Source: Geoglobus acetivorans
Lineage (GTDB): Archaea > Halobacteriota > Archaeoglobi > Archaeoglobales > Archaeoglobaceae
NCBI RefSeq assembly: GCF_039641995.1
Contig: NZ_CP087714.1
Coordinates: forward strand, 806,001-870,000
Length of the DNA: 64,000 bases
Direction: 5' to 3'
Positions 15,563 to 60,510 of this stretch are shown in pieces. Both the position numbers and the translations under genes were made by a program. Below the pieces are notes generated by a model. It searched no databases, had not been told where the DNA came from, and worked only from the letters and a program-made list of their open reading frames with translations. Each line of letters opens with the position of its first letter. Within the stretch, counting starts at the first letter, position 1.

Positions 15563-15583
15563 ATTTTACACTCAGCGTAAAAT
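15563..15583. promoter_or_regulatory. Palindromic operator copy 1
   Basis: Arms ATTTTAC (15563-15569) and GTAAAAT (15577-15583) surround a 7-base core ACTCAGC whose inner bases also pair. Only one of the ten base pairs of the 21-bp dyad mismatches. It lies ~100 bases upstream of the gene at 15683 and shares geometry and sequence with the copies at 15663 and 17661. Confidence 0.6.
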
Positions 15584-15649
15584 TGTATGCTGATGCACCA
15601 CTCCAGTATGCCGGCAGATCGGTTGATGTGGCGGATGGTGGTGTAGAAA

Positions 15650-15658
15650 TATTTTTAT
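15650..15658 (+). promoter_or_regulatory. TATA box of the gene at 15683
   Basis: ATTTTTATA lies about 25-33 bases before the ATG at 15683, so the transcript is expected to be leaderless. Operator copy 2 lies between this box and the start codon, where a bound repressor would cover the initiation site. Confidence 0.5.
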
Positions 15659-15662
15659 ACTG

Positions 15663-15681
15663 TTTTACGTCTAATGTAAAA
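15663..15681. promoter_or_regulatory. Palindromic operator copy 2
   Basis: Arms TTTTAC (15663-15668) and GTAAAA (15676-15681) with the same 7-base spacing as copy 1. The core GTCTAAT is less symmetric. It ends one base before the ATG at 15683. Confidence 0.55.
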
Positions 15682-15682
15682 T

Positions 15683-16129
15683 ATGGACTTGAGGAAAGTA
15701 GCTCTGTTGATTGTCGTTCTGGGAGTCGCAGTGGTTCTGCTGTCCTTCAAAAACACTTCAGGAACGTCAGGCTTTGGTGAGGGATTGAGTGAGGAGGATC
15801 TGACAAAGATAAGTCCCGGAAACATTCAGATTACTGCAGTCTTTCTCAATCCGATGTATCCGGACATGAGCAAGCCTGCGATATATGTCAGACTTGATAC
15901 CCACTCCGGGGACCTTTACACCTACGACATGCTGAACAAGACGTTTCTCGAGGTTGGCGGGGAGAGGTACAGACCCACTGAGTGGAAGGAGGATGACAGC
16001 TCGTGGGGGCATCACAGATACGGGGTATTCACTTTCCCCGAAAGCGCGCTGGAACTGATTAAAAAGGAGAGGAACTTCAAGCTCGTAATCGAGCTGGACA
16101 GCACAAGGGTTCTGGAGTGGAGAATATGA
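15683..16129 (+). CDS. Membrane-anchored extracytoplasmic protein with a THSGDL/HHRYGVF domain
   Basis: The 148-residue protein has an N-terminal membrane anchor (residues ~5-22, VALLIVVLGVAVVLLSF) and an outer domain of ~110 residues rich in beta strands. Conspicuous motifs are LDTHSGDLYTYD (~residues 72-83), YRPTEWKEDDSSWGHHRYGV and FTFPESALELIKK. I recall similar domains in bacterial proteins next to metal-handling membrane proteins, but cannot name the family. It is coupled to the next gene by an ATGA overlap. Start chosen from promoter spacing; operator copy 2 sits directly upstream. Confidence 0.75.
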   Translation: MDLRKVALLIVVLGVAVVLLSFKNTSGTSGFGEGLSEEDLTKISPGNIQITAVFLNPMYPDMSKPAIYVRLDTHSGDLYTYDMLNKTFLEVGGERYRPTEWKEDDSSWGHHRYGVFTFPESALELIKKERNFKLVIELDSTRVLEWRI

Positions 16130-16659
16130 TCGACAGGAGGATCGTTTACGGGTTTATCTCTTCAATTTTACTGCTTGTTTTCTACGCTTCCATAAATTAC
16201 CTTGCTGGTGGGACTGAGGCGGTTTACTGGAATTTCAGAAATTACCTGCCGTACATTGCCGTGATTGATGCTGGCTTTGGCATCCAGATTGCACTCTACA
16301 CCCACATAAGGTCATTTGGCAAAAGCTGCAATGCCGTTGCAAGCACTCCTGTAACGGCGGGAAGCATGGTTGCATGCTGTCTGCACCACGTAACTGACTT
16401 CATACCGTTCGCCGGAGTGGGTCTGGGTTTGTTCCTGTCTCAGTACACCGAACTCTTCTTTCTGATAGGTGCGGCATCGAGCGTTGTCGGGGTTGCATGG
16501 ATGCTCTCAATAGTCCAGAGATGGAACCTTTACTCTGAAGATGCCTTGCTCTCAAAGCTGATGGTGGTGGATTATCTGAAAATGAGGAACGCTCTGCTCG
16601 TTCTTTCAGCAGCCGTTCTTTTGCTGTGGTATGTCTCAAAGCCCTACAGATACTTTTAA
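16126..16659 (+). CDS. Polytopic membrane protein with a MVACCLHH motif
   Basis: The 177-residue protein has about five hydrophobic helices (residues ~8-28, 40-60, 72-110, 112-135, 150-170). Its striking segment TAGSMVACCLHHVTDFIP (~residues 77-94) puts two adjacent cysteines and two adjacent histidines inside a membrane helix, and SFGKSCNAVA adds a third cysteine. Such Cys/His clustering suggests transition-metal binding or transport, though no named family is claimed. The ATG at 16126 overlaps the previous stop (ATGA), so a GTG at 16117 is rejected. The two genes likely act as one unit. Confidence 0.75.
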   Translation: MIDRRIVYGFISSILLLVFYASINYLAGGTEAVYWNFRNYLPYIAVIDAGFGIQIALYTHIRSFGKSCNAVASTPVTAGSMVACCLHHVTDFIPFAGVGLGLFLSQYTELFFLIGAASSVVGVAWMLSIVQRWNLYSEDALLSKLMVVDYLKMRNALLVLSAAVLLLWYVSKPYRYF

Positions 16660-16692
16660 TTCATTTTTACAAAAAATGGTAATTGCAGGAGG

Positions 16693-17187
16693 TTAGGAGG
16701 CAGACCTCATGGCGTTCCACTGCTGAATTGCTGCTTCGAGGAACGATATCAGGGTTTTTCTCATTGCTTCGTTGTCCGGTGAGCCGGAATAACCTATGAA
16801 TGCCATTTTTCTTCCGTTTATCTCCATGATGCTCCCGTTGGGATAGAGAACGTAGAATTCTGGTGTGCCCGTCGCTCCAAATTTAAGGGCGAGGAGCCTT
16901 TCGCTGTTGAAGTCAACCTTCACCGGCACGAATTTGTTTATGGCATTCTGGAGGTCCTCATACTTCTTCAGGTCTTCAAGGAATGCTTTGCACACGTGGC
17001 AGGTGTCGGAGTGTATGTAGACGAGAACAGGCCTGTTTTCTCTCTCAGCGATTTTGAGACCTTCGCTGTAGGAATAAAATTTGACGGGTAAATCTGAGCT
17101 ATCCTCTGTCGGATTTTTTAAAATGACGAGCAGCCCTGATAAAATGAGAAATAATGCTATGAATATGGTAACCCTGCTTCCTGCCAT
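16693..17187 (-). CDS. Membrane-anchored thioredoxin-like protein (CHVC active site)
   Basis: The 164-residue protein has an N-terminal membrane helix (residues ~6-23) and then a thioredoxin fold: RPVLVYIHSDTCHVCKAFLE with the CxxC pair at ~residues 62-65, VKVDFN, and the cis-proline loop ATGTPEFYVLYPNG. It resembles the DsbD C-terminal/thioredoxin_7 group. It would face the outside of the cell and reduce or shuffle disulfides. It overlaps the upstream rhodanese gene by 31 bp, so the two are co-translated. The unusual CHVC dipeptide gives no certain redox direction. Confidence 0.85.
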   Translation of the reverse strand: MAGSRVTIFIALFLILSGLLVILKNPTEDSSDLPVKFYSYSEGLKIAERENRPVLVYIHSDTCHVCKAFLEDLKKYEDLQNAINKFVPVKVDFNSERLLALKFGATGTPEFYVLYPNGSIMEINGRKMAFIGYSGSPDNEAMRKTLISFLEAAIQQWNAMRSAS

Positions 17188-17555
17188 GCGATGACACCAC
17201 CGTCAAGCTCGTAGATGTTTTCGTAGCCCATCTGGGCAAGCTTTGAAGCGGCCATCTTGCTCATGTGCCCGCTTCTGCAGTATACCAGTATCTTCGTGGA
17301 CTTGTCTTCCGGCAGCAGGTTAGAATATTCCTCAATCCTGTCGTAGGGAATCCATGCGTTCGTGCCCGGGATGGGTTTCTGTTTGGGAACATGCACGTCT
17401 ATGACAAAAACGTCTCCGCTCTGTATCATGCGGTAGAACTCTTCCGGCGAAACAGACTGGTATGCCCTTTTTTTCGGAAACAGAACGTAGCTGGTGTAGA
17501 GCAGATATGCAACAACTGCGAGTATGACTGCAGCGGTAATAATTTTCGAGTTCAC
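17157..17555 (-). CDS. Membrane-anchored rhodanese-like protein
   Basis: The 132-residue protein has an N-terminal helix (residues ~4-23, a membrane anchor) followed by one rhodanese domain with the active-site loop VYCRSGHMS (cysteine at ~residue 92) and the ending YELDGGVIAWQEAGLP. Rhodaneses carry sulfane sulfur on the cysteine. The GTG start at 17555 is set by a strong Shine-Dalgarno, AGGAGGTGAT, six to twelve bases upstream. It is paired with the thioredoxin-like gene, suggesting an extracytoplasmic sulfur or thiol relay. Operator copy 3 overlaps its promoter. Confidence 0.87.
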   Translation of the reverse strand: MNSKIITAAVILAVVAYLLYTSYVLFPKKRAYQSVSPEEFYRMIQSGDVFVIDVHVPKQKPIPGTNAWIPYDRIEEYSNLLPEDKSTKILVYCRSGHMSKMAASKLAQMGYENIYELDGGVIAWQEAGLPYS

Positions 17556-17568
17556 AGCATCACCTCCT

Positions 17569-17637
17569 TTAGAAGCTTTCTGCTACACACAACACACGGC
17601 CAATACTGCCCGGAGTCTTTGTCAGGCGTTTTTCCAT
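17569..17637 (-). CDS. Possible 22-residue leader peptide upstream of the rhodanese gene
   Basis: An ATG on the minus strand at 17637 opens a 22-codon frame (MEKRLTKTPGSIGRVLCVAE..., stop at 17569-17571). Its stop lies directly before the AGGAGGTGAT of the rhodanese gene. It lies between the operator-bearing promoter and that gene, so it would be the first frame on the mRNA. No ribosome-binding site is clear. It could be chance. Confidence 0.25.
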   Translation of the reverse strand: MEKRLTKTPGSIGRVLCVAESF

Positions 17638-17660
17638 AACTTTTCGCAATCATCAATCTT

Positions 17661-17681
17661 ATTTTACACTTAGTGTATAAT
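17661..17681. promoter_or_regulatory. Palindromic operator copy 3
   Basis: TTTTACACT (17662-17670) and AGTGTATAA (17672-17680) flank a central T. Nine of ten pairs match over 21 bp, with the same axis and spacing as copies 1 and 2. It overlaps the minus-strand TATA-like ATTATTATA (17676-17684) that would serve the rhodanese-thioredoxin pair. Confidence 0.62.
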
Positions 17682-17743: not shown

Positions 17744-18271
17744 CTACCACCCCATCATGGGGCAGTGGGCGTAGCCGTATCCATAGCCGTAGCCGTATCC
17801 AGGTGAGAAGCCCTGAACTCCCTGCATCCATACTGGAATGTTCGAGTTCTCATCTCCAAGGCTCTGACCATTAACCTCGATGTACACAGGAATTATCGAG
17901 TTCCCGTATTCCAGGCCCTTAACCTTGACCTCATCTCCCTGCTTTATTCCAAGATTGGCTGCAAACCACCATGGCATCGTCACGTACTTTCCACTGTCCA
18001 GCACCACTCCCATGGGGTATACGGTCGACACCTTTCCACTGACATCGACCAGCTCAGCCTGTCCCTGGTTTCCGTAGGCGTAAGGGACGTATCCCTCATC
18101 TCCGTCATACCCGCCCATCATGGGATATCCATAGCCGTAACCCATCATGGGTCCCATCATGCCCGGCATGCCAAATCCATATCCAAACCCACCCATGTGG
18201 GCTGAAGCTGTATACACCGCAAGGGCCATCAGGCCTACAACCACACCCGCTATCAAACCACTCTTCTTCAT
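17744..18271 (-). CDS. Secreted Met/Gly/Tyr-rich protein with a central beta domain
   Basis: The 175-residue precursor has a signal peptide (residues 1-~24, cleaved after YTASA). The mature N-terminus begins HMGG and is rich in Gly, Met and Tyr (MPGMMGPMMGYGYGYPMMGG). A middle domain of ~75 residues (ELVDVSGKVSTVYPMGVVL to IPVYIEVNGQ) looks like an OB-type beta fold. The C-terminus has a YGYG run and ends AHCPMMGW. Methionine-, histidine- and cysteine-rich outer proteins often bind Cu(I) or other soft metals; this is inference. No named family is recognised. Neighbour genes are thiol/redox-type. Confidence 0.8.
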   Translation of the reverse strand: MKKSGLIAGVVVGLMALAVYTASAHMGGFGYGFGMPGMMGPMMGYGYGYPMMGGYDGDEGYVPYAYGNQGQAELVDVSGKVSTVYPMGVVLDSGKYVTMPWWFAANLGIKQGDEVKVKGLEYGNSIIPVYIEVNGQSLGDENSNIPVWMQGVQGFSPGYGYGYGYGYAHCPMMGW

Positions 18272-59688: not shown

Positions 59689-59802
59689 TTATTTCAGCAT
59701 CTTCTCGATATCCATTGCCTTTTTGAGGGTCAGCAGAAACATCGCCAGAACAACCAGCATGACCACGGTTGAGGCAAGAAAAACGGCGGTAAAATCACTC
59801 AT
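59689..59802 (-). CDS. Very small CcmD-like membrane protein (37 residues)
   Basis: The 37-codon frame [20 protein letters not shown] ... [12 protein letters not shown] has one membrane helix (residues ~6-24) and a short charged tail, as in CcmD heme-exporter peptides. It begins with ATG 59802, 8 bp inside the end of ccmC, with GGAGGTGATCC as ribosome-binding site. It is too short for most gene callers. In bacteria CcmD binds CcmC-type proteins in heme delivery. The identification rests on size, topology and position. Confidence 0.72.
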
Positions 59803-60433
59803 TCAGGATCACCTCCTCAAATCTGTCTAGCCTGTAATTTATTGCGGCATAAACAACAACAAGAAGTATGAACGAGGTTATGGCTATTCCCAGGGGCATT
59901 CCTATTTCGAGACTGATGCTTTCCACCTTGGGATGCAGGGAAAAGAATATCTGAGAGCTGAAGTAGCTGAATGGGATCGTCACGTAAGCGAAGATGGAAT
60001 ATATTGCTGAGATTCTTGCCCTATCGTCGGGCGCATCTATGCTCTGCCTCAGGGCATGATACGCTGCGTAAACGAACCAGGTTATCAGAACTGCCGTCTC
60101 TCTTGGATCCCAGTTCCAGAACGCTCCCCATGCAACGTTGGCCCAGATGCTTCCGCTTATGAGTGCAGCAGTTATCAGGTAGAAGCCCGCAACGGCAAAG
60201 TTTTTGGCTATAAGGTCATACCTGTAATCCCGTTTGATGAGGTACAGGATCGAGGCAGCCATTGTCACCGTGAACGCAAAAAAGGATCCTATGGCCGAGG
60301 GCAGGTGGAAGAATAATATCCTGTAGTTGTCCTTCAGGATGGGCGAAGGTGAGGGTGGAAGGTTCATTGCTGTGTACACTGCGAAGATGAACATCAACAC
60401 CGCAACTACTGCGATAGCCGCTATTTTTCGCAT
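59795..60433 (-). CDS. ccmC: Heme exporter/handling protein CcmC
   Basis: The 212-residue protein has six membrane helices and the tryptophan-rich heme motif [20 protein letters not shown] (residues ~107-126); external His residues ([23 protein letters not shown]) would ligate heme. CcmC passes heme to CcmE for c-type cytochrome assembly. Other ccm genes are not in the window. A small CcmD-like gene follows with an 8-bp overlap. Its presence fits an organism with many c-type cytochromes. Confidence 0.92.
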
Positions 60434-60510
60434 GAAGTAAATCTAACTTCTTTTGTTTAAAAATCTAATCCAGCGAACTGACAGGAATTGATTTGTGTTT
60501 TCCGAATGGG

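Follow-up and report, generated by a model that had tools for sequence, protein, structure and literature searches.

In this study, we analysed three near-identical dyads in a 64,000-nucleotide stretch of Geoglobus acetivorans DNA (the window). The evidence makes it highly probable that these dyads are operators of an archaeal BlaI-family repressor, acting with a membrane peptidase and controlling both gene pairs of the window plus a wider regulon, which by its predicted operators extends past these two pairs. From sequence, we strongly infer both the dyad sites and BlaI as their regulator. The features concerned are listed below. Training of the position weight matrix (PWM) drew on 19 sites at gene 1/gene 2 loci, which makes scores at those loci circular; the blaI promoters, which were not in the training set, provide the independent test.

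15563-15583, no strand: dyad 1, ATTTTACACTCAGCGTAAAAT, 9/10 pairs symmetric, PWM 23.2; about 100 bp upstream of the gene 1 start, predicted distal BlaI operator.
15652-15659, + strand: TATA-like box of gene 1, TTTTTATA, read from sequence, directly upstream of dyad 2.
15663-15681, no strand: dyad 2, TTTTACGTCTAATGTAAAA, 7/9 pairs symmetric, PWM 26.4; 1 base upstream of the gene 1 ATG, predicted proximal BlaI operator.
15683-16129, + strand: gene 1, a 148-aa anchored or secreted protein with DTHSGDL...SWGHHR.
16127-16659, + strand: gene 2, a membrane protein with invariant GSMxACCxHHxTD.
16693-17187, - strand: thioredoxin-like anchored protein (PF13899, E 2.6e-9).
17157-17555, - strand: rhodanese-like anchored protein (PF00581, E 3.7e-13).
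17661-17681, no strand: dyad 3, ATTTTACACTTAGTGTATAAT, 9/10 pairs symmetric, PWM 24.4; about 106 bp upstream of the rhodanese start, predicted BlaI operator, kept in genome G025.

The first-pass annotation had reported the three near-identical dyads at these positions, and both the sequence and a symmetry script confirm them; the arrangement that it described, two rightward genes facing a leftward rhodanese/thioredoxin pair, is also found. The dyads do not flank the gene block symmetrically: dyads 1 and 2 both precede the rightward pair, and dyad 3 the leftward one. The start of gene 2 overlaps the stop of gene 1 (ATGA), and relatives of either gene, like the pair itself, occur in 12/57 genomes of the order Archaeoglobales. 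The gene 1 product matched no Pfam family, and a structure search with the predicted gene 2 model gave no matches. Gene 1 relatives also adjoin gene 2 in Chloroflexi, where the pair is found in reversed order (L186, L187, L188, L192, L193, L195, and L196) near CcdA-, cupredoxin-, and Rieske-like proteins, as judged by eye. Two other genes of the window may be mentioned here. A secreted Met/Gly/Tyr-rich protein with C-terminal PMMGW and no significant Pfam family is encoded at 17744-18271 (- strand), and its relatives adjoin thioredoxin/rhodanese genes in G025 and G023. At 59795-60433 (- strand) lies a CcmC-like cytochrome c assembly gene (PF01578) whose start codon is overlapped by a weak dyad-like sequence (60424-60442); this was not counted as a site because it is poorly conserved in relatives.

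Between-species conservation, rather than symmetry, is the strongest evidence for the dyads. Dyad 1 has a counterpart at the equivalent position in G025. A spacing of exactly 1 base between dyad and gene 1 ATG recurs in seven genomes, which belong to four genera, and their alignment shows an A/T-rich, TATA-like block immediately upstream of the dyad; TTTTTATA is a putative TATA box of gene 1. In relatives where the neighbours are kept together, dyads are seen between the DUF411 and methyltransferase genes and before those for thioredoxin, rhodanese, and CcmH; in G023, for instance, the thioredoxin-like relative has its own dyad 7 bp upstream of the gene, and the rhodanese is preceded by one too. 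Many such genes cluster in these relatives, and G. acetivorans has many of them at a second locus (C1:892-907 kb), about 25-37 kb past the window end. This locus holds four further dyad sites: one before blaI, one before ccmH, one before a small secreted protein gene that is divergent from a membrane-HTH gene, and one between a UbiE-like methyltransferase gene and a DUF411 gene; copper ATPase genes are also present.

Could the dyads be chance palindromes, or structural elements of A/T-rich promoters? Weak motif forms do lack a genome-wide excess (127 sites at two mismatches vs. 204 for the reversed control), and therefore only strong copies of the dyad are informative. Genome-wide counts were pattern searches with the 19-base dyad form. 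Exact TTTTAC-N7-GTAAAA has two copies in the 1,903,522-bp genome, both in the window and 99 bp apart, and dyad 3 is one of eight one-mismatch matches. With one mismatch allowed, the degenerate form TTTWCANYNRNTGWAAA gives 16 genomic sites vs. 8 for the reversed control; 6/16 fall in the window and the second locus, all six intergenic and promoter-proximal, and 8/9 of those examined outside the two loci are inside ORFs. The literal 22-base consensus of the first-pass annotation gave no match. The random density that would have spoken against its reading is not seen for the strong form. Given that no exact copies exist away from these promoters, that different genera keep the same spacing to the ATG, and that blaI promoters outside the order match independently in 19/19 cases (below), a chance or structural origin is extremely improbable.

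The blaI gene (C1:894730-895083) is the only homologue in the genome and lies outside the window, 24.7 kb beyond its end and at a distance of 71 kb from dyad 3; the earlier remark that the window contains no regulator gene thus holds for blaI. Its 117-aa product matches PF03965 over residues 16-113 (58 bits vs. a cut-off of 22.6), which places it in the family, and MecI is among its solved-structure relatives (E 3e-6). The membrane peptidase gene follows directly, the two forming a two-gene unit. Every genome with the gene 1/gene 2 pair also has blaI, except G028, where only the peptidase is visible and blaI would fall beyond the contig end; the co-occurrence is significant (Fisher p ~7e-7), a value that ignores shared ancestry.

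Within the order, 10/17 blaI genes have a PWM match of 9.8-17.9 by the ATG, a score reached by ~2% of other ORF starts. These matches, 10/10 across four Geoglobus/Ferroglobus-type genera, end 6-11 bp before the ATG, or at the ATG in G033, and isolated blaI-peptidase units (G023 and G024) carry the dyad as well. No good dyad was found at blaI itself in the Archaeoglobus-type G002, G003, G009, G010, and G011, which have dyads at ccm promoters instead, or in G055 and G056 of the order's other family. A strict mismatch count is less striking in Archaeoglobales (6/17 within two mismatches; shuffle mean 1.0), since their blaI sites are degenerate. Outside the order, the full-length orthologues that a peptidase profile picked out in further families of the phylum form a group set well apart. 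At each of the 19 loci examined, which span five other archaeal families, the peptidase gene is preceded by blaI, and TTTAC-N7-GTAAA stands 2-3 bp before the blaI ATG in every one (15 exact, 4 with one mismatch; shuffle mean 0.07). The dyad is also present before a divergent ABC-transporter gene in many of these genomes. In most of them (L246-L250, L253-L262), an operon for an ABC transporter (permease, ATPase, lipoprotein) neighbours the blaI-peptidase pair, either divergently transcribed or simply adjacent, and its permease gene is often preceded by the dyad. In the unrelated archaeal family f36 (L251, 3565-4456), the neighbours of the blaI-peptidase pair are gene 2 and what is probably gene 1, so that the two units are associated independently there.

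Dyad conservation and the blaI promoter sites strongly support the shared regulator that the first-pass annotation had proposed for both gene pairs, and a metal or redox signal for it is plausible, but the ArsR/DtxR/Fur-like class that it named found no support among the HTH proteins that we noticed recurring with the dyad, which were BlaI and a membrane-anchored DUF7343/MarR-like protein. The latter (TM, short loop, TM, linker, winged HTH) was our first candidate. As a one-component regulator it might bind the dyads itself, with BlaI merely co-occurring: it has an HTH domain, its gene belongs to the same clusters, and in G031 one dyad serves both that gene and the divergently oriented gene 1. 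However, in G001 and G014 it occurs without BlaI and with no good dyad nearby, and no homologue was found in 6/19 outside genomes with the dyad at blaI; after these results it was demoted. The dyads at isolated blaI-peptidase units also count against it, and we regard this alternative as quite improbable. The blaI promoter sites, the outside loci, and the absences of the winged-HTH protein together make BlaI the best-supported binder. The membrane-anchored family (L057 10845-11393, L096 7103-7603, L097 7128-7661) has two TM helices, a Met/His-rich loop, and the DUF7343/MarR-like HTH; each genome has several paralogues, which frequently lie close to genes for copper or cytochrome functions.

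A different division of labour is conceivable, in which BlaI binds the dyads but is never cleaved and, in the manner of CopY, senses metal or redox state on its own, while the peptidase does other work, for example the processing of secreted proteins. Direct copper sensing is described for CopY, which is related to BlaI (PMC7253601), and the copper ATPase genes of the second locus would fit. Yet the BlaI alignment has no Cys in its consensus or invariant columns and no C-terminal CXC, and the G011 orthologue scores far below the cut-off of the CopY/TcrY model TIGR02698 (30.8 vs. 121.95 bits). Moreover, BlaI and peptidase genes are adjacent in 19/19 outside loci, and it is the peptidase that holds the conserved Cys and Met residues. 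Sensing by an uncleaved BlaI is thus unlikely, and we favour a repressor that works together with its peptidase.

This peptidase is a 215-aa membrane gluzincin that ends shortly after its catalytic domain, the C-terminal extracellular beta-lactam sensor domain being absent. HEXXH...EXXXD, the signature described for BlaR1 (PMC9834060), is present in 37/37 peptidase sequences, as is an MXC motif, and a CX3C motif occurs near the N-terminus of all those with complete N-termini (one is cut by a contig end). In the structural model (pLDDT 82), helices at 17-36, 40-64, and 70-101 are predicted to precede the catalytic domain, and MXC follows the second helix, ahead of the third. With a cytosolic catalytic site, such as BlaR1 has, the Cys and Met residues would face outside, and this is the topology that we propose. 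In Pfam the protein matched M48 (22.8 bits vs. 20.3) and did not match M56, and the best Foldseek hits of the model, ZMPSTE24 (E 4e-3) and BlaR1 8exp (E 0.069), both stay above 0.001; we therefore suggest that it works like BlaR1/PetP and claim no M56 membership.

The circuit that we infer, comprising binding by BlaI, repression, peptidase topology, cleavage, and signal, would operate as follows. A winged-helix dimer of BlaI would bind the half-site TTTACA, laid out as TTTACA-N5-TGTAAA, between the TATA box and the transcription start, and so block its own gene and the regulon; given this predicted placement of the dyads, occlusion is the simplest reading of repression. In the window, the regulon would comprise gene 1/gene 2 and rhodanese/thioredoxin, and in the second locus ccmH-ccmF-ccmH, the small secreted protein, the UbiE-like methyltransferase, and the DUF411 protein. 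An extracellular signal, for which Cu(I) or the oxidation of a thiol/Met cluster is the likeliest choice, would be read by CX3C and MXC of the peptidase, whose activated cytosolic HEXXH...EXXXD site would then cleave BlaI, so that the regulon, together with the operon of the repressor itself, is switched on. Cleavage is proposed because the two genes stay paired, the catalytic motif is present, and BlaR1 and PetP set a precedent. A point against it is that the residues aligned to the scissile bond of MecI are E-Y in BlaI, vs. N-F in MecI (N101-F102; PMC9834060). As to the signal, the copper ATPases of the second locus, the DUF411 protein, and the CX3C/MXC residues suggest copper, which we put forward tentatively, as a possibility just short of an even one; thiol redox or haem status may be sensed instead. 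Relatives of DUF411 have a role in bacterial copper resistance.

Proteolytic signalling of the BlaI/BlaR1 type is known from bacteria, in the beta-lactam response and in a cyanobacterial copper switch. The nearest described system is PetRP of Synechocystis PCC 6803, in which the BlaI-type PetR and the BlaR1-type protease PetP govern the copper-controlled plastocyanin/cytochrome c6 switch (PMC7896320, PMC13421787). As there, the gene of a BlaI-family repressor adjoins that of a membrane protease, c-type cytochromes and copper are linked, and removal of the repressor by the protease is proposed; the archaeal pair differs, in a comparison with PetP/PetR by description only, in its regulon of cytochrome-c maturation, DUF411, and thiol genes, its assignment to Pfam M48 rather than M56, and its CX3C/MXC motifs. 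With BlaI/BlaR1 and MecI/MecR1 of staphylococci (PMC9834060) it shares a PF03965 repressor, an adjacent HEXXH...EXXXD membrane gluzincin, and the half-site TACA, but the archaeal peptidase has 215 aa without the beta-lactam sensor domain, the operator spacer is N5 and not N2, and E-Y stands in place of N-F. CopR/CopY (PMC7253601) likewise combines a BlaI-type repressor, an ACA/TGT half-site, and nearby copper ATPase genes, whereas the archaeal BlaI lacks the CXC metal site, has N5 in place of N2, and has a peptidase partner. The operator core of bacterial CopY, TACA-N2-TGTA, has been reported for BlaI/MecI too (PMC7253601); in Archaeoglobales and in the outside families it is TACA-N5-TGTA, 3 bp wider. 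The archaeal pair is a variant of the BlaI/BlaR1-PetRP type whose operator is wider and whose sensor differs. A literature search of incomplete coverage found no description of an archaeal BlaI-peptidase pair.

Overall, we lean, by a modest margin, toward a new archaeal signalling family, in which a minimal gluzincin would sense extracytoplasmic copper or redox state through CX3C and MXC and remove BlaI by proteolysis, with one operator, TTTACA-N5-TGTAAA, across several archaeal families and with cytochrome-c maturation and copper/thiol genes as its Archaeoglobales targets. The findings suggest that repressor proteolysis governs cytochrome-c, thiol, and copper genes in many archaea. They offer a concrete circuit for the possible control of cytochrome-c maturation in iron-reducing and other archaea, a candidate motif, CX3C/MXC, through which copper or redox state may be sensed from across the membrane, and a regulator and physiological context for two conserved, unnamed membrane-protein families (gene 1 and gene 2), which Chloroflexi have as well.
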